This document shows positions 21,801 through 35,576 of a stretch of 40,071 bases of DNA, one piece after another (position 1 is the first letter of the stretch; every line of letters starts with the position of its first letter). The position numbers and the translations under genes were made by a program. Origin of the DNA: Minisyncoccota bacterium. Its GTDB lineage: Bacteria > Patescibacteriota > Minisyncoccia > Phycocordibacterales > UBA9973. Location of the stretch: positions 1-40,071 of the forward strand of contig JAGOSX010000005.1 in NCBI GenBank assembly GCA_018062065.1, given 5' to 3'. Below the pieces are notes generated by a model, which worked only from the letters and a program-made list of their open reading frames with translations, was not told the DNA's origin and ran no database searches.

Positions 21801-22478
21801 ATGAGTAATTTCTATATCGTAGCTACTCCCATAGGGAATTTAGGAGATATAACTTTTCGAGCTATAGATGTTTTAAAATCTGTTGATTTGATTTTGTGTG
21901 AAGATACTCGCACTACTAAAAACCTTTTAGATAAATATAATATAAATGTCAAAACTATGAGCTACCATGCTCAGAGTAAACTATCTAAAGCAGACAAGAT
22001 TTTTGAACTTCTAGAAGAAGGAAAAAACCTCGCTTTGGTTACTGATGCTGGAACCCCGACTATCTCTGATCCGGGGTCTTTGCTCGTATCTCAAATTAAA
22101 GAAAAGTTTGCTGAGCAAGTTAAAATCATACCTATTCCAGGGGCCAGCGCTTTAATCACAGCCTTATCTGCTTCAGGAGTAATATCACACGAATTTACTT
22201 TTTTAGGATTTTTACCTCATAAAAAGGGGAGAGAAACTTTATTTAAAGAGATTGCGAATTCTTCTCGGGCTTGTGTGTTTTATGAATCACCTCATAGAAT
22301 TATGAAAACCTTAGAATCTTTAGAAAAATTTGCTCCAGACAAAAAAGTAACTATTGCAAGAGAATTAACAAAAATCTACGAGCAATTTATTTCTGGAAAT
22401 CCTAAGGAATTGATTTTATATTTTGAAAATAATAAAGATAAAGTCAGGGGAGAATTTGTAGTTATGGTAGGGAATTAA
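21801..22478 (+). CDS. rsmI: 16S rRNA (cytidine-1402 2'-O) methyltransferase
   Basis: The enzyme adds a 2'-O-methyl group to C1402 in the ribosomal P site using S-adenosylmethionine. The tetrapyrrole-methylase fold is recognised from VATPIGNLGDIT at the start, LCEDTRTTKNLL, VTDAGTPTISDPG and IPGASALITALSASG. At 225 residues it lacks the roughly 60-residue C-terminal extension of the E. coli enzyme. It is joined to the ATP synthase operon by a one-base gap, so the two are probably coupled in translation. Confidence 0.94.
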   Translation: MSNFYIVATPIGNLGDITFRAIDVLKSVDLILCEDTRTTKNLLDKYNINVKTMSYHAQSKLSKADKIFELLEEGKNLALVTDAGTPTISDPGSLLVSQIKEKFAEQVKIIPIPGASALITALSASGVISHEFTFLGFLPHKKGRETLFKEIANSSRACVFYESPHRIMKTLESLEKFAPDKKVTIARELTKIYEQFISGNPKELILYFENNKDKVRGEFVVMVGN

Positions 22479-22517: not shown

Positions 22518-23495
22518 TTATTCTGCAAAACTTAGTCCCTTGCTTTGCAACAATTCTTCAATTTCAGCAAGAGATTTTTTACCAGCATTTCTCCACTTCA
22601 AAAAATCTGAGGGTGTTATTTTTGTTATGTCACCAAGGGTTTTGATTCCGCCGGCGTATAAACAATTATGTGCACGCACTTTAAGATCTAAATCTTCAAT
22701 TGGTGTATTTAATAATTTTGCTGTTTCGATTTCTTTGATGTGAATTGGTTTCGGTTCATATATTTCCAATCTTTCTTTGAGAATTTTGTTTTCAATTTTA
22801 GCTTTCTGCAGGTCATTTACATATTCAACCAGTTTATCTGGCTCTATATGTAAAAAATTAGCTTTATCTAAAGATTGCATCCATGATTCAGTAAAATAAA
22901 GCTTTGAGATACTTCGACGAAATGATTTGTTGATGATTTGTTGAATTCTACTATGAGTTAAATCATTATGAATCTTTGAAATATTGTCTAAGTTTGCTCC
23001 GCTCAAATAAGCAAGAAAAATTTCTCTTTGCTGATCTGTTAAGTTTGCTACCTTTGCTACCTTTTCCAAAAATCCACTGAGTTCTAAGAAATATTTTAAT
23101 CGTGCAACTTTTTCATATTCAAATGGAAAGTGTTTTAGTTTCATTGAAAGGTAAGAATCAATCTCAGATTTTCTAAAAAGTAATTCTGTTTTTAAAGAAT
23201 TTTTTAGACGGTAATAATTCAATCCTTTGTTTTTGCAATATGACTCATTAATACGTCCAATAGGTAACTCAAGCATTTCGTGAGCTTCCTTGCTGGAGAT
23301 AAATGGTTCGTTAAAATTTTTAACACCCATTTCTTTCGCTAAAGCTACTGCATCAATAGTGAAGTTTTCTTCATCTATTGCAATTTCAGGAATCCACCCG
23401 TTTTTTACATAAGACTTTACTGTTCTCATATCTTTCACAAGTAAAATATCTCTTACTTGTTCAAAAGTAAGTTTTTGGTTAAGCTCTTCGTTCAT
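22518..23495 (-). CDS. Chimeric regulator: helix-turn-helix segments, sigma region 4-like segment and RNA polymerase alpha C-terminal domain
   Basis: The 325-residue protein joins parts usually found in separate proteins. Residues 8-35 and about 64-116 look like MerR/excisionase-type helix-turn-helix units (FISSKEAHEMLELP, RKSEIDSYL). Residues 151-199 resemble sigma-70 region 4: LTDQQREIFLAYLSG, then SRIQQIINKSFRRSISK. A short coiled coil spans 222-248. Residues 258-323 match the RNA polymerase alpha C-terminal domain, with LDLKVRAHNCL, IKTLGDIT and GKKSLAEIEELLQSKGLS. Both of the last two domains are known to bind DNA and polymerase or activators. It probably acts as a transcription regulator or accessory factor. 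It lies downstream of priA but has its own sigma70-like promoter. The domain reading is firm for the alpha part, moderate for sigma4 and tentative for the N-terminus. Confidence 0.8.
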   Translation of the reverse strand: MNEELNQKLTFEQVRDILLVKDMRTVKSYVKNGWIPEIAIDEENFTIDAVALAKEMGVKNFNEPFISSKEAHEMLELPIGRINESYCKNKGLNYYRLKNSLKTELLFRKSEIDSYLSMKLKHFPFEYEKVARLKYFLELSGFLEKVAKVANLTDQQREIFLAYLSGANLDNISKIHNDLTHSRIQQIINKSFRRSISKLYFTESWMQSLDKANFLHIEPDKLVEYVNDLQKAKIENKILKERLEIYEPKPIHIKEIETAKLLNTPIEDLDLKVRAHNCLYAGGIKTLGDITKITPSDFLKWRNAGKKSLAEIEELLQSKGLSFAE

Positions 23496-23571: not shown

Positions 23572-25500
23572 TTAAACCAAATCTGTAGGGTCTATAGAAA
23601 TTTGAAAATCTTTAGGGAGGGAAGTTAGTTTATTATAAAAGTCTAAATTTTTATTAGTATTTTTATTTAAATACGGTTCTTGCCAGTTGTTTTTATCTAA
23701 TTTCATTAATAAATTTAATACGTATTTATCTTTTTGATTTTTAATATAACCACTAAAAATAATAGGATTATATTCACTAAAATTATGATTTAAACTTTCT
23801 TTAATTTCTAGAATATTTTCTTTAGTATCTATTAAATTAATTTTAATAAATCTTTTATAAGGAGGATAATCTAATTCTTTTCGGATTTTTAATTCTTCTC
23901 TAACGAAGTTTAGCAAATTACCAGTATTAATTTCACTTAAGATTTCATTATCAGGGTTTTTAGTTTCAATGATTAATTTACTTTGACTTTTTTCTAAAAT
24001 ATTTAAAATAATACTAATTATTTTCTCACTAATTTTATAATTCGGTATCGTAAATAAAGTGTCAAAAGAAGCGATAATAGAAAGATCTAAATTTTTAGAA
24101 AGGTAAGGTAAAGCCATCTCAGTCCCTATTAAAATATTTTTATTTGACTCATTAAATTCTTTGACGATATTTATAGCTTGCTTGTTAGTTTTTACGTTCT
24201 CTTTATCTAAGATGAGAGTTTGATTTTCGTCTATATATTCCTTTAATTCTTCGAGAATTGTTCTAGTACCTATTCCTAAAGGAACGAGATCCCAACTACC
24301 ACAATTCGGGCAAGTCATCAATGGATTTTTCTCAGTTTTACATTTATTGCAAGCAAAAATTCTTTTCTTTGTTTTACTTGATTCGTATAAAACTAAAGGC
24401 ATTTTACAAGTATCGCAATTTATCTCTTCACTGCAATTTCGACATATTGTATAAGTAGCGAGTCCTTTTCGGAGCGAGAAAATAAAAACCTTCTGATTTT
24501 TATTTATCTTATTTTTTATTTCTTCGATAGTTGTATCATTAAAAATCTTGAATTTATTATTTTCTATTTTCTTCCTTTCTTTGATTTCTATTTCTATTGA
24601 TTCGTCTATCCGATAAGAGAGGTTTTTAACTTCACCGATATGCTCAAAATCTTTTTTGGCAATAGTCTCAAAACGCAAAATATTACTCGCGAGGATTAGT
24701 TTAATATTTTCAAATAAAGCATAAGTCTCAATAAAAACTCTCAAATCTAAAAATGGTTTAAAGAAAGTATTATAACTAGGAGAATTTTCTTTCTCTAAAA
24801 TTATAGTATCTAAATCAGTCCTAGGTAAAACTAAATAAGGGGGAGTAGTGATGATTAAAATTGGGTGAGTTTCGTTACCTATTTTTTTAATTCTATCTAA
24901 AAGCTTTTTATTACTAAGCGAACTATAAAGAGAAATCACAAAGTCTTCTATGCCTTTTTTAAGTTTCTCTTCAAATTCTAAAACTTCGTTTTCGGTAGGT
25001 AGTACTATAACTATAGATTTTTTGTTTGCAAAGTTTGAACGAATGAGAGTCTTATAGTAATCTATCCTTTCTTCAAGTCTTGCTTGGAAAAGTAATTTTT
25101 CGGATTTAACGCTATCAATTTTATTTTTGGTATTTTGAATATTGTAAATTTTTGCAATTTCGTCGTAGTTTTCTTTTATGATATTTGGAATTAAATAAGA
25201 AGCGAGCATGCTTTTATTTATTAAAAAGTATTCACTAGTTTTTAGTATAGCTTCGATATAAGAATCTTTAAAAATTGAAACTTCTTTTGTTTCTTCAATT
25301 TTTTTCATTGTGAAGTCGAGTTTTTTAACTTCACCTTTTACACTACTGGCATTTTTTGTATCAACGACTAAAGCGAGAGTATTTTGATTTCTTAATTTAA
25401 CTCTGACTATACTACCGACTTTAATATTAGAAACAGAAAAATACGAAAGTTCTTCGCGGAAAGGGGTCTTTTTAAGCGGTATGACTGTCAAAATATTCAT
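23572..25500 (-). CDS. priA: PriA-like primosomal protein N' with degenerate ATPase motifs
   Basis: PriA restarts stalled replication forks and loads DnaB through other primosome proteins. The family is recognised from the N-terminal DNA-binding domain, the eight zinc cysteines (353, 356, 362, 365, 384, 387, 397, 400) with PLGIGTRTILEELK after them, ILIGTEM (456-462) and the YPPYKR segment. The helicase core, however, is eroded. Where Walker A (GxTGSGKT) should be, residues 137-152 read LFQARLEERIDYYKTL. Where the DEEH box should be, 231-243 read DTIILEKENSPSY. The GRAGR motif after IGTEM is missing. The frame is intact over 642 residues, so this is a full-length protein that has probably lost ATP hydrolysis, not a pseudogene. 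It may act as a structural loader. Confidence 0.85.
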   Translation of the reverse strand: MNILTVIPLKKTPFREELSYFSVSNIKVGSIVRVKLRNQNTLALVVDTKNASSVKGEVKKLDFTMKKIEETKEVSIFKDSYIEAILKTSEYFLINKSMLASYLIPNIIKENYDEIAKIYNIQNTKNKIDSVKSEKLLFQARLEERIDYYKTLIRSNFANKKSIVIVLPTENEVLEFEEKLKKGIEDFVISLYSSLSNKKLLDRIKKIGNETHPILIITTPPYLVLPRTDLDTIILEKENSPSYNTFFKPFLDLRVFIETYALFENIKLILASNILRFETIAKKDFEHIGEVKNLSYRIDESIEIEIKERKKIENNKFKIFNDTTIEEIKNKINKNQKVFIFSLRKGLATYTICRNCSEEINCDTCKMPLVLYESSKTKKRIFACNKCKTEKNPLMTCPNCGSWDLVPLGIGTRTILEELKEYIDENQTLILDKENVKTNKQAINIVKEFNESNKNILIGTEMALPYLSKNLDLSIIASFDTLFTIPNYKISEKIISIILNILEKSQSKLIIETKNPDNEILSEINTGNLLNFVREELKIRKELDYPPYKRFIKINLIDTKENILEIKESLNHNFSEYNPIIFSGYIKNQKDKYVLNLLMKLDKNNWQEPYLNKNTNKNLDFYNKLTSLPKDFQISIDPTDLV

Positions 25501-25516
25501 GGTTCTATTGTATCAC

Positions 25517-25546
25517 CATGACCCTGAGTTTGCCGAATGGGTCATG
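25517..25546. repeat. REP-like palindrome between priA and mreB
   Basis: CATGACCC (25517-25524) pairs with GGGTCATG (25539-25546) around CTGAGTTTGCCGAA. The core resembles the CCCTGAG-N-TCGAAGGG-type intergenic repeats seen in many bacterial genomes. It stands between two divergent genes. Confidence 0.5.
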
Positions 25547-25566
25547 TTTTTATTCTAACATAATTG

Positions 25567-25575
25567 TGCTATATT
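25567..25575 (+). promoter_or_regulatory. Extended -10 promoter of mreB
   Basis: TGC-TATATT ends six bases before the ATG at 25582, predicting a leaderless mRNA for the mreB operon. Confidence 0.6.
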
Positions 25576-25581
25576 AGGTTT

Positions 25582-26595
25582 ATGAGCATTTTTTCAAAGA
25601 AATTAGGAATAGACTTAGGAACGGCAAATACTTTGGTTTTTGTGCCTGGGAAAGGTATCGTTTTAAACGAACCTACTGTGGTTTCAGTTTCTCTAGAAAA
25701 CAACAAAATCCTCGCAATCGGTAAAGATGCAAAAAGTATGATAGGTAAAACCCCTGATGAAATCCGGACTTATTGCCCTATGAAAGACGGAGTTATAGCT
25801 GATTATAAAGTTACTGAAGCTATGCTAAGGTATTTTATTGGTAAGTCTTTAGGTAAATGGAATCTCGTAAAGCCAGACGTTATGGTATCTGTACCGGCTG
25901 GAGTTACTTCGACTGAACGTCGAGCCGTAGTAGAAGCGACTCTTAAAGCCGGAGCTAAGAACGCTTATGTGGTGAAAGAGCCTATCTTGGCTGCTATTGG
26001 AGCGGGAATACCGATTCACGAATCTATGGGTCATATGGTTGTAGATATTGGAGGAGGAACTACTGACGTAGCGGTTATTTCTCTCGGTGGAATAGTTTCT
26101 TGTACTTCGGTAAAATGCGCCGGAAATAAAATCGATCAAGCGATAGCCGACTATATCAAGAAAACTTTTAACCTTGCAATAGGAGATAAAACTGCAGAAG
26201 AAGTTAAGATCAAAATCGGCGCTGCGATTCCTCTCGAAGAAGAATTAAAAGTTACTATCAAGGGTCGCGACTATATTCAAGGTTTACCTAAAACTGCGCA
26301 AGTTTCAACTAATGAAATCGTTAAAGCTATCGACGGTGAATTAAAGCAAATCGTTAAAGCTATCAAAGACGTTTTACAAGAAATTCCTCCTGAACTAGCT
26401 TCAGATATAATAGATAATGGTATCATCATGACCGGAGGATCTTCATTACTTCGTAATTTAGCGGATTTAGTTTATCGTAAAACCGGAGTGAAAGCTACCG
26501 TGGCTGAAGATGCCTTATACTGCGTAGCAAAAGGCACAGGTATAGCACTTACTCATTTAGACGTCTACAAAAAAGCAATTATAAGTAAAAAGTAA
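25582..26595 (+). CDS. mreB: Rod shape-determining protein MreB
   Basis: MreB is the bacterial actin that guides lateral cell-wall synthesis under the membrane. The actin-type ATP motifs are in place: GIDLGTANTLV (phosphate 1), VVDIGGGTTDVAVIS (phosphate 2) and ITGG-type IIMTGGSSLL (adenosine). It has 337 residues, the normal size. The ATG at 25582 is chosen over an upstream TTG because it directly follows the -10 box and gives the standard MSIFSKKLGIDLGT start. mreC, mreD and rodA are not adjacent; a clamp-loader gene follows two bases after the stop. Confidence 0.97.
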   Translation: MSIFSKKLGIDLGTANTLVFVPGKGIVLNEPTVVSVSLENNKILAIGKDAKSMIGKTPDEIRTYCPMKDGVIADYKVTEAMLRYFIGKSLGKWNLVKPDVMVSVPAGVTSTERRAVVEATLKAGAKNAYVVKEPILAAIGAGIPIHESMGHMVVDIGGGTTDVAVISLGGIVSCTSVKCAGNKIDQAIADYIKKTFNLAIGDKTAEEVKIKIGAAIPLEEELKVTIKGRDYIQGLPKTAQVSTNEIVKAIDGELKQIVKAIKDVLQEIPPELASDIIDNGIIMTGGSSLLRNLADLVYRKTGVKATVAEDALYCVAKGTGIALTHLDVYKKAIISKK

Positions 26596-27281: not shown

Positions 27282-28985
27282 ATGTCTTATCGATCCGAAA
27301 CTAAAAATTGTCAGAACTGTAAAAATGATTTTACTATCGAGTCAGACGATTTTTCTTTTTATGAAAAAATGAAAGTTCCAGCACCTACTTGGTGCCCAGA
27401 ATGTAGATTTCAAAGACGTCTTTCTTTTATGAATATTTTTTCTTTATATAAAAGTAATTGTTCAAAATGTAAAGAATCTATAATATCAATGTTTCATAAA
27501 GGTAAAGATTTAATTGTCTATTGTCCAAAATGCTGGTGGGCGGACGATTGGGATGGAACCGAATACTCTATAGAATATGATCCAAACCGCACCTTTTTTG
27601 AACAATGGTTTGAATTAAAACAAAAGACTCCTCACATGGCTTTAGATACATTATATTCTTCCTTAGTTAATACTAATTACACAAATTATTCTTCTTACCT
27701 AAAAAATTCTTATTCTTTGTTTTTTGCTGATTATGCAGAAAATTCGCTTTATTCTCAATTTTTAAACACAATGAAAGATACTTCTGATTGTTTAAGAATT
27801 AGGGAATCTGAATTATGTTATGATTCTGTAGGTCTTTATAAATGTTTTGGTTGTATTGGATCTTTAGAATGTAATAATTCAGTAAATATGATTTTCTCTA
27901 AAAATTGCTCTAACTGTAATGATTGTTTCGGTTGCATGAATTTAAAAAGTAAATCATATTGTATTTTTAATAAACAATATTCTAAAGAAGAATACTTGGA
28001 ATTTATGCAGAATATTAATTTAGAAAATTATGATAACTATCAGAAATATAAAGAGCAGAGTAAGATATTCTGGCTTACTCAACCTAATCGTAGTTTTTAT
28101 GGAAATAGTTTAAATATTAATGTTTCGGGTGACTACACCTATGAATCAAAAAATACTAAAAATTCTTATCTAGTAACTTCAGCTGAGGATTCAAAATTTA
28201 TACAGATGATATCTGTTCCTAAAACAAAAGATGCTTACGATTATACTTGCTGGGGAGGGAATTCAGAAAAAATTTACGAAACTTTAATAGCAGGACATGG
28301 CGCGTCTAATATACGATTTTCTATAGCTGCTTATCCTGATGTTTTAAATATTGAATACGGTTATTATAATGCTACATGTAAAAATACTTTTGGTTCTGTT
28401 AATTTAAAAAGAAAAAATTATTGTATTCTCAATAAAGAATATTCAAAGGAAGATTACGAGATTCTAAGAGAAAGAATTATTAATGATATGAATAATAACC
28501 CATATGTTGATAAAAGAGGACGAGTCTATAAATATGGTGAATTTTTTCCAGTAGAATTCTCTTCTTTTGGTTACAAAGAAACTTTTGCAACTCAATATTT
28601 TAATTTATCAGATAAAGATATTGAATTTTTCGGTTTTAATGATTTCGAAGGTTCTAATAATGAATACCAACATGACATGCTCTCTTCAGAGTTACCTAAT
28701 TCATTGTTTGATTTTGAAAATTTGTTTAGTAAAGTTATTAAATGTGATTGTGGTAAATGTTATAAAATAATTGAGCAAGAATATCAGATTTTAAAAAAAT
28801 TAAAATTACCAATTCCTAGACAGTGTCCTGATTGTCGGAAGGGCGAAAGGTTTGCTTTAGTTTTACCACCAAAAACTTTTGAAAGAAGTTGTTCTAAATG
28901 TAATTCTTTAATCTTAACAGCTTATGATTCTAGTAGACCAGAAATAGTCTATTGTGAAAAATGTTATCAGCAGGAAGTTTATTAA
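27282..28985 (+). CDS. CPR-type Cys-rich zinc-ribbon protein of unknown function
   Basis: The 567-residue protein begins with a zinc ribbon (CQNCKNDF, then WCPECRFQRR), then a second one (CSKCKES, YCPKCWW). A long middle part with scattered Cys pairs follows (CFGCIGSLEC, CSNCNDCFGC), containing NLKSKSYCIFNKQYSKEEY and later NLKRKNYCILNKEYSKEDY, an internal repeat. It ends with two more ribbons: CDCGKCYKI with QCPDCRKGER, and CSKCNS with YCEKCYQQEVY. I know this pattern as a large family found mostly in CPR genomes, sometimes labelled CaiB/BaiF by error; that name has no support here. There is no signal peptide and no catalytic motif. It may bind nucleic acid or metal. It appears to be the last gene of the mreB unit; frr starts 29 bases later with its own -10 box. 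Confidence 0.8.
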   Translation: MSYRSETKNCQNCKNDFTIESDDFSFYEKMKVPAPTWCPECRFQRRLSFMNIFSLYKSNCSKCKESIISMFHKGKDLIVYCPKCWWADDWDGTEYSIEYDPNRTFFEQWFELKQKTPHMALDTLYSSLVNTNYTNYSSYLKNSYSLFFADYAENSLYSQFLNTMKDTSDCLRIRESELCYDSVGLYKCFGCIGSLECNNSVNMIFSKNCSNCNDCFGCMNLKSKSYCIFNKQYSKEEYLEFMQNINLENYDNYQKYKEQSKIFWLTQPNRSFYGNSLNINVSGDYTYESKNTKNSYLVTSAEDSKFIQMISVPKTKDAYDYTCWGGNSEKIYETLIAGHGASNIRFSIAAYPDVLNIEYGYYNATCKNTFGSVNLKRKNYCILNKEYSKEDYEILRERIINDMNNNPYVDKRGRVYKYGEFFPVEFSSFGYKETFATQYFNLSDKDIEFFGFNDFEGSNNEYQHDMLSSELPNSLFDFENLFSKVIKCDCGKCYKIIEQEYQILKKLKLPIPRQCPDCRKGERFALVLPPKTFERSCSKCNSLILTAYDSSRPEIVYCEKCYQQEVY

Positions 28986-34172: not shown

Positions 34173-35576
34173 TTAAAAATCATCTAAACTTCCTTCAGTT
34201 TTACGAGGAGCAAAATCTGAAAGACTACTTTTTTCTAAATTAAGGAAGCTTGTAGTTTTACCGTCAAAGTAAAGTTCGACTTTTCCAGTAGGACCGTTAC
34301 GATGCTTTTCGATTAAGATTTCTGCGATATTAGTTTGTTCGCTTTCGTCTTTACCTTTATCTTCACGATGAATAAACATAACAACGTCGGCATCTTGCTC
34401 GATAGATCCTGAATCACGCAAATCTGATAAACGAGGTTTACCTCCACGACTCTCAACAGCACGAGAAAGCTGAGAAAGAGCTAGTACTGGTACATCTAGT
34501 TCTTTAGCTAAGCTTTTTAGAGAACGAGAAATTTCAGTAACTTGGTTTACCATAGAATCGTAATTCTTGCTCGTAGTCATCAGTTGCAAGTAATCGACTA
34601 CTATCATATCGAGACCTTTTTCGGCTTTTATACGACGAGCAGTAGCTTTCATTCGTACAATAGAATTTCCAGGTTGATCATCAATATAAATTTTTGCTTT
34701 AGAAAGTTTATCTAAAGAATCACGTAGTTGAGAAAAATCTTTATCTCCGTTTAATCTTCCTGTACGTAAATTCCAAGCATTAACTCGAGACTCTGCTGAG
34801 AGCATACGATCTACTAGTTGTTGAGAGGACATTTCAAGAGAAAAAATAAGCACTGATTTATTGTGAACTGTAGCAGACATACGAGCCATATCAAGAGCTA
34901 ATGTTGTCTTACCGACAGAAGGACGAGCTGCGAGTATTATTAAGTCTGAAGGTTGAAGTCCAGAGAGCATATTATCAAGCTCAGTAAATCCAGTAGGAAT
35001 ACCTCGGAGTAAACCTTTGTTCTCGTGAAGTTTTTCTAGTCTTTCATAAGCGAGAGGTAGGGCTTCTTTAAGACTTGTGAATTTTTGATTTTTTGGACTA
35101 GATACAACTGAGAAAATTTTCTTTTCTGCCATATCTAAAATATCATCCATATGTTCATCTCCTTCAGCAAAAGCCATTTCGGAAATTGTATCTGAAGCTT
35201 CAATTAGAGAACGAAGTACGAATTTTTTCTGAACTATATTTGCATAGTATTTGATATTAGAAGAAGAAGGAACAGTATTTACTAATTCAGCCAAGTATTG
35301 ATTACCCCCGATATTATCTAAAATCTTTTTCTCAGCGAGTTTACTAGATAGAGAAAGCATATCGATCGGTTCGTTTTTTAAGAAAAGCTCGAGCATGCTT
35401 TCGAATATTTTTCTGTGTTTATCGACGTAGAAAGAATCTCCATTAATAATATCTTCTATTTCTGCGAGACTATCTTTACGAAGTAATATTGAACCCAAAA
35501 CAGCTTTTTCTGAATCTATATGTTGAGGTGGAAGTCTTAAACCAGGGTTATTTTTTTTATTTTGATCTTTCTGCAT
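34173..35576 (-). CDS. dnaB: Replicative DNA helicase DnaB
   Basis: The hexameric helicase unwinds the replication fork. The N-terminal helical domain (about 12-115) begins LPPQHIDSEKAVLGSILL. The RecA-like motor has Walker A ARPSVGKTT (217-225), followed by VLIFSLEMS, DMIVVDYLQLM (Walker B) and the arginine-finger region DLRDSGSIEQDADVVMFIHRED. 467 residues is the usual length, and no intein is present. It is the first gene of the pair with recR. The 151-base spacer to trpS must hold its promoter; none stands out. Confidence 0.97.
   Translation of the reverse strand: MQKDQNKKNNPGLRLPPQHIDSEKAVLGSILLRKDSLAEIEDIINGDSFYVDKHRKIFESMLELFLKNEPIDMLSLSSKLAEKKILDNIGGNQYLAELVNTVPSSSNIKYYANIVQKKFVLRSLIEASDTISEMAFAEGDEHMDDILDMAEKKIFSVVSSPKNQKFTSLKEALPLAYERLEKLHENKGLLRGIPTGFTELDNMLSGLQPSDLIILAARPSVGKTTLALDMARMSATVHNKSVLIFSLEMSSQQLVDRMLSAESRVNAWNLRTGRLNGDKDFSQLRDSLDKLSKAKIYIDDQPGNSIVRMKATARRIKAEKGLDMIVVDYLQLMTTSKNYDSMVNQVTEISRSLKSLAKELDVPVLALSQLSRAVESRGGKPRLSDLRDSGSIEQDADVVMFIHREDKGKDESEQTNIAEILIEKHRNGPTGKVELYFDGKTTSFLNLEKSSLSDFAPRKTEGSLDDF

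Follow-up and report, generated by a model that had tools for sequence, protein, structure and literature searches.

The helicase motifs of PriA are widely conserved, yet the helicase activity is dispensable in Escherichia coli, which raises the question of why selection maintains PriA. The question arises at a locus of Candidatus Nomurabacteria, in which a full-length gene encodes a protein with the fold of PriA that has lost motifs I, II and VI of the helicase. In this work we analyzed this gene in a stretch of 40,071 nucleotides (hereafter the window; contig JAGOSX010000005.1 of assembly GCA_018062065.1), together with its counterparts in the genus, in the further relatives (Zambryskibacteria, Taylorbacteria, Vogelbacteria and Campbellbacteria) and in other Patescibacteria. 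The coordinates of the features are given in Table 1.

Table 1. Features of the priA locus and of its counterparts in relatives; positions are those of the window unless a contig is named
Feature	Position	Strand	Remarks
priA-like gene, predicted PriA pseudohelicase	23572..25500	-	642 aa, ATG start
3'-DNA-binding domain (residues 1-105)	25186..25500	-	PF17764 at residues 15-103
Former Walker A position (residues 139-150)	25051..25086	-	now Q-x5-R-x3-Y-K; from alignments
Former Walker B / DEEH position (residues 232-244)	24769..24807	-	now LEKENSPSY; from alignments
Cysteine-rich (zinc) region	24301..24444	-	8 Cys: 353, 356, 362, 365, 384, 387, 397, 400
Former motif VI (QVAGRAGR) region (residues 494-512)	23965..24021	-	lost and shortened; from alignments
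C-terminal domain (residues 530-642)	23575..23913	-	YPPF and VDPxxLL blocks conserved; PriA fold
Promoter-like box AATATAGCACAATTATGTTAGAATAAAAAC	25546..25575	-	common to priA and its replacement in relatives
mreB	25564..26595	+	divergent neighbour bordering the slot throughout the genus
Presumed rsmI-like gene	21801..22478	+	flanks the slot opposite mreB in most members of the genus; similarity across relatives
Replicative helicase DnaB	34173..35576	-	TIGR00665, 530 bits, over the cut-off
~110-aa slot gene, PriA-negative genus members	L216:1504-1836, L217:1410-1742, L219:1385-1696, L221:1360-1668, L222:1401-1742	+	
~110-aa slot gene, PriA-negative genus members	L218:4881-5225, L220:5646-5978	-	

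The identity of the protein was established by profile and structure searches. The open reading frame matched NF004066 with an E value of 1.6e-57 and TIGR00595 with an E value of 2.5e-55, both matches lying under the curated cut-offs (188 bits against 230 bits for TIGR00595), and the Pfam family PF17764 (PriA_3primeBD) scored 23.8 bits, above its cut-off (22.7). All the significant sequence matches in the PDB were PriA structures (best E value 4e-16). An AlphaFold2 model of the protein reached a pLDDT of 85.9 and a pTM of 0.83; the best nine matches obtained with it in Foldseek were all PriA (E values from 4e-36 to 6e-26), and the leading matches of a VIA comparison were PriA as well, the fork-bound PriA 8fak giving a Z score of 25.3 over 579 residues, with an rmsd of 6.0. 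The protein thus combines a full-length match to PriA profiles with the fold of PriA, of which, as the sequence and the predicted model show, the 3'-DNA-binding domain, the two RecA-like lobes, the zinc region and the C-terminal domain are kept.

In the alignment with E. coli PriA, the TGSGKT sequence is replaced by ARLEERIDYYK (residues 140-150), DEEH by EKEN within the sequence LEKENSPSY (residues 235-243), and GSATP by ASNIL (ASNILRFET), while the QVAGRAGRAGKQGE block is shortened and has no GRxGR. The hallmarks of an active SF2 helicase (Walker A GxGKT, DEEH and QxxGRxGR) are therefore missing, and the protein shows the erosion of motifs I and II by which a PriA pseudohelicase of the Deinococcus radiodurans type is defined. 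The residues for ATP binding and hydrolysis are gone from the sequence, and the erosion goes far beyond what chance or an annotation error would produce. The original prediction had located an intact frame of 642 codons, quoted the residues that occupy the Walker A and DEEH positions, and described a protein that had lost motif VI and kept its zinc core and flanking domains; its coordinates, residues and intact frame were right, motif VI is indeed absent, and the retention of the remaining domains is borne out by the eight zinc cysteines, all present, by PF17764, by the conserved C-terminal blocks and by the fold.

Two other departures from E. coli PriA were observed. The winged-helix domain is missing, and the position of Asp17, which in E. 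coli belongs to the 3'-end pocket, is occupied by T/S, a change that counts against the scaffold reading discussed below. Since the canonical PriA sequences of Patescibacteria also carry T/S at this position, and those displayed lack the winged helix as well, neither character is a marker of the eroded class.

The erosion is a trait of the whole genus and order within a broad clade of Patescibacteria, and not an oddity of one genome. A homologue was present in 43 of the 60 relatives searched, none with an internal stop, and every one that was aligned showed the same erosion; a P-loop, DEEH or GRxGR match was found in 0 of 71 aligned sequences of the genus and the order. An assembly artefact was ruled out by the occurrence of the same erosion in independent genomes and named records. 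Other Patescibacteria retain a canonical PriA: 136 of 380 genomes of the phylum passed the curated PriA cut-off, and the motifs were intact in 30 of the best-scoring proteins, which were read individually. Lower-scoring proteins sampled over many families were eroded, and many of the 380 genomes gave weak background matches only. One record titled Burkholderiales bacterium (JAMPXW010000002.1) encodes a PriA of the Nomurabacteria type and seems to carry a wrong label or contaminating sequence.

In a tree calculated without the motif columns, 51 eroded sequences grouped together (SH-aLRT 97), and another eroded pair joined a nearly intact sequence, L102, apart from them; this placement indicates at least two losses, a count that is a rough guide given that the tree was a quick one with long branches. 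The PriA of L102 belongs to the same class and has motifs that are altered and nearly intact (GPAAAGKTE, LDEEQD and GRTGRPG). It is possible that it represents an intermediate of a second erosion.

The eroded gene bears the marks of purifying selection. All full-length copies in the genus have an open frame, and for the closest genus pairs dN was 0.11-0.15 and dS 0.9-1.4, giving a dN/dS of 0.08-0.15 for priA; the ratio was 0.01-0.02 in mreB and 0.04-0.10 in rsmI. In addition, a new consensus occupies the places of the lost motifs: among the 71 sequences, Q139 and Y149 are invariant and R145 is present in 98% at the old Walker A site, E238 is present in 100% at the old DEEH site, and the position of S272 in the window protein is D in 95%. 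All eight zinc cysteines occur in practically every one of them, and the equivalent of Asp438, which contacts PriB, is D in 18/20 genus and 16/16 order sequences. The new consensus shows that the former ATPase sites are not drifting, and suggests that they may have taken on a structural or binding role.

A search of the window genome, which is 90.5% complete, gave no second PriA: the remaining matches to TIGR00595 were short, and that on contig 7 proved to be RecG. In 80 genomes of the genus the profile search likewise gave one PriA or none per genome; three genomes had two partial matches that together make up one gene. With the frames open, dN/dS low, the zinc region and fold conserved and no second priA found, the earlier view that selection maintains a non-helicase PriA is supported; what it had missed is the age of the trait and its spread over the clade, and the fact that the gene can be done without, about one third of the genus having a different gene at this site.

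This dispensability was revealed by the genomic context. In the seven PriA-negative relatives that were read first, the exact slot beside mreB holds a gene for a protein of ~105-115 aa in the same direction. Among 80 genomes of the genus, 52 carry PriA, 25 the small gene, none both, and three neither; two of these three have no slot-bordering copy of mreB and in the other the slot runs off the end of the contig, so the slot is unassembled in all three and 77/77 readable genomes carry exactly one of the two genes. The small gene adjoins mreB in 25/25 genomes, and rsmI is next within the fetched flank in 21/25. The two slot states require eight changes on an MreB+RsmI tree, and five are forced by the starred branches alone, so that at least five switches are counted on a tree that was built from linked genes flanking the slot. 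PriA looks ancestral, because several relatives outside the genus have it beside or near mreB. The priA locus of the genus has therefore been exchanged repeatedly for an unrelated gene encoding a phage-type protein of ~110 aa. Other features were noted around the slot. The gene at 22518-23495 of the window, between priA and rsmI, joins PF03118, the C-terminal domain of RNA polymerase alpha (E value 4.7e-19), to a weak HTH_17 match; three PriA-bearing relatives that were read (L223-L225) have no such gene at this place. On the other side, downstream of mreB and of a DNA polymerase III delta-prime-like gene, positions 27282-28985 encode a protein of 567 aa with many Cys-x2-Cys pairs.

Most of the small genes sit behind the same promoter-like box as priA. 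In the genus the box is close to AATATATCACATTTRTGYTAAAATnAAAnnATG and in most cases only a few bases separate it from the start codon. Its TAAAAT/TAGAAT element was present upstream of 29/34 PriA genes and of 22/23 small genes extracted, the latter figure being somewhat favoured as the starts of the small genes were chosen partly by this element; a separate comparison in which starts were not chosen in this way showed the same box upstream of both genes. In the window, ~45 nt of extra sequence separate the box from the ATG of priA; here a short inverted repeat (ATGACCC...GGGTCAT) is found at 25518-25545, and an upstream ATG opens a frame of 10 codons that ends in TGA. Extra sequence between the start of mreB and the box was also seen in three genomes that carry the small gene, G030, G606 and G004 (L240, L247, L243), and in G030 its two ends are inverted and match each other, as in a small inserted element.

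With a mean column identity of 73%, the small protein is well conserved, and it is not a fragment of PriA (hhalign probability 0). No credible match was obtained for it in Pfam, PHROGs or the PDB, and a suspected likeness to DnaD-type loaders was unsupported by Pfam. The AlphaFold2 model made from five viral sequences is helical (pLDDT 75), and fold searches with it returned weak matches to unrelated proteins only. The family was not found in the window genome, in 197 genomes of the order and 380 of the phylum (samples that held no known positive), or in known phage genomes. The other relatives found were five IMG/VR viral contigs (L292-L295 and L299), whose proteins are related to the slot protein of the 25 genomes and have no homology to PriA; those of L292-L295 are 55-58% identical to the slot protein. 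In L293, L294 and L295 the gene follows a YqaJ-type exonuclease at a distance of a few genes downstream, in L293 and L294 it is immediately upstream of a RecA gene, and in L292 and L299 a DnaE-like gene is nearby, as well as a PD-(D/E)XK nuclease or other genes of DNA metabolism; the exonuclease and RecA of L293 and the nuclease of L292 were confirmed by profile, the other neighbours being read from the sequence. Given that the small gene was not seen in the other genera searched, transfer from phage to host is the simpler direction, and the tree of the 25 host and five viral copies is compatible with one or two captures.

What the exchange means depends on whether the two proteins share a task. 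It could be that the small protein performs the step of PriA that is still required, for instance helicase assembly or ssDNA mediation. The exact positional exchange in the same direction, the shared box and the strict alternation fit the replacement of a restart step or of a fork-associated recombination step, and the repeated switches and the presence of YqaJ exonuclease and RecA in the viral clusters point the same way; in contrast, the small protein is without a fold, family or functional match, recombination between shared flanks would yield mutual exclusion mechanically, and the switches were counted on genes linked to the slot. We consider that functional replacement falls a little short of even odds. 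The exchange may instead be neutral or hitchhiking, two functionally unrelated genes trading places through flanking homology. Swapping around a conserved gene is mechanically easy, and the flanks are shared and highly similar (MreB is ~82-87% identical in the genus); against this, every readable slot keeps one of the two genes, PriA was never retained elsewhere once the slot was taken, and the small protein is well conserved. An exchange of this kind is an appreciable possibility that is rather more probably wrong than right. The complete scenario, in which a restart initiator stripped of its helicase was repeatedly displaced behind its own promoter by a phage-derived protein doing the same step, can be proposed only tentatively and with some doubt.

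For the eroded PriA itself, the reading that we favor, with a probability of about 0.72, is that of a fork-binding primosome scaffold without ATPase, possibly replaceable by the phage-derived protein. The retention of the fork-recognising domains and the loss of the ATPase would fit a scaffold for reloading DnaB, which is encoded in the window and is its likely client. Precedents exist in well-characterized proteins. D. radiodurans PriA has no ATPase or helicase activity, binds ssDNA and forks, and there is evidence for its interaction with DnaB (PMC4504706); ATPase-dead E. coli PriA has been used for DnaB loading in vitro (PMC10175261). In PriA structures the fork is recognised via the 3'-DNA-binding domain, the lobes and the C-terminal domain, the zinc region moves to enclose the lagging strand, and the helicase activity is used if the lagging strand is duplex (PMC10175261, PMC13377028). 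By analogy with these proteins, the eroded PriA would most likely recognise branched DNA at a collapsed fork, its zinc region may enclose the lagging-strand ssDNA, and it would recruit the DnaB loading machinery without unwinding DNA. The absence of PriA from 25/80 genomes of the genus and the alteration of the aromatic-rich loop after DEEH count against a scaffold. The repeated exchange for a protein of ~110 aa suggests, for its part, that only a small portion of the job of PriA may still be needed, which another protein could supply.

The eroded protein could also have been repurposed to bind DNA outside restart, for example in recombination, DNA uptake or fork protection. The extensive re-specialisation of the lobes and the fact that some strains have instead a protein with viral relatives in DNA-metabolism clusters would agree with such a change; nonetheless we judge it unlikely, as the zinc region, the second lobe and the C-terminal domain show about the same degree of conservation as the remainder of the protein, and the fold still matches the fork-bound PriA 8fak best. 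An active ATPase with divergent motifs is highly improbable: the RecA-like lobes persist in the model, but the P-loop, the DE pair and the arginines of motif VI are all missing, and in E. coli PriA the K230R substitution alone abolishes ATPase and helicase activities (PMC4504706). A decaying pseudogene, open by chance, would account for the lost motifs and for the absence from about a third of the genus, and is scarcely credible at all in view of the open frames, the invariant cysteines, a dN/dS well below 1 and an erosion common to the whole order.

Since a PriA pseudohelicase is already known in D. radiodurans, the scaffold proposed here would be of a known kind, with the erosion carried further. 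Both proteins are full-length, have degenerate Walker A and B motifs and carry an arginine at the position of the Walker lysine (PMC4504706), the activity of the window protein being judged from its sequence. The erosion in D. radiodurans is milder; the clade of the window retains nothing of the P-loop, of DEEH or of motifs III and VI, and has a new consensus at these sites. It also belongs to a different phylum, shows the trait in the whole order, and in one genus exchanges the gene for an unrelated one. Compared with canonical PriA, from E. coli and many Patescibacteria, the window protein shares the domain order, the 8-Cys zinc region, the GTEM/GTQM and YPPF blocks and the fold, and differs in having no intact motif I, II, III or VI. 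The PriA of Actinobacteria is annotated as being without detectable helicase motifs, and would be another lineage with this likeness to the window protein. In the open-access papers covered we found no report of PriA motif loss in Patescibacteria; as far as these searches show, an erosion this deep and this widespread in the group is new, and so is the repeated exchange, at the same site, for a phage-type gene.

A broad clade in which PriA has been kept and its ATPase lost reveals which surfaces of the protein matter, and a genus in which each slot holds either PriA or a phage-type protein of 110 aa offers a natural test of the minimal restart function. If the small protein does perform the remaining step, the exchange would be a non-orthologous replacement that has occurred naturally and repeatedly, and it would show what the minimal function of PriA is.
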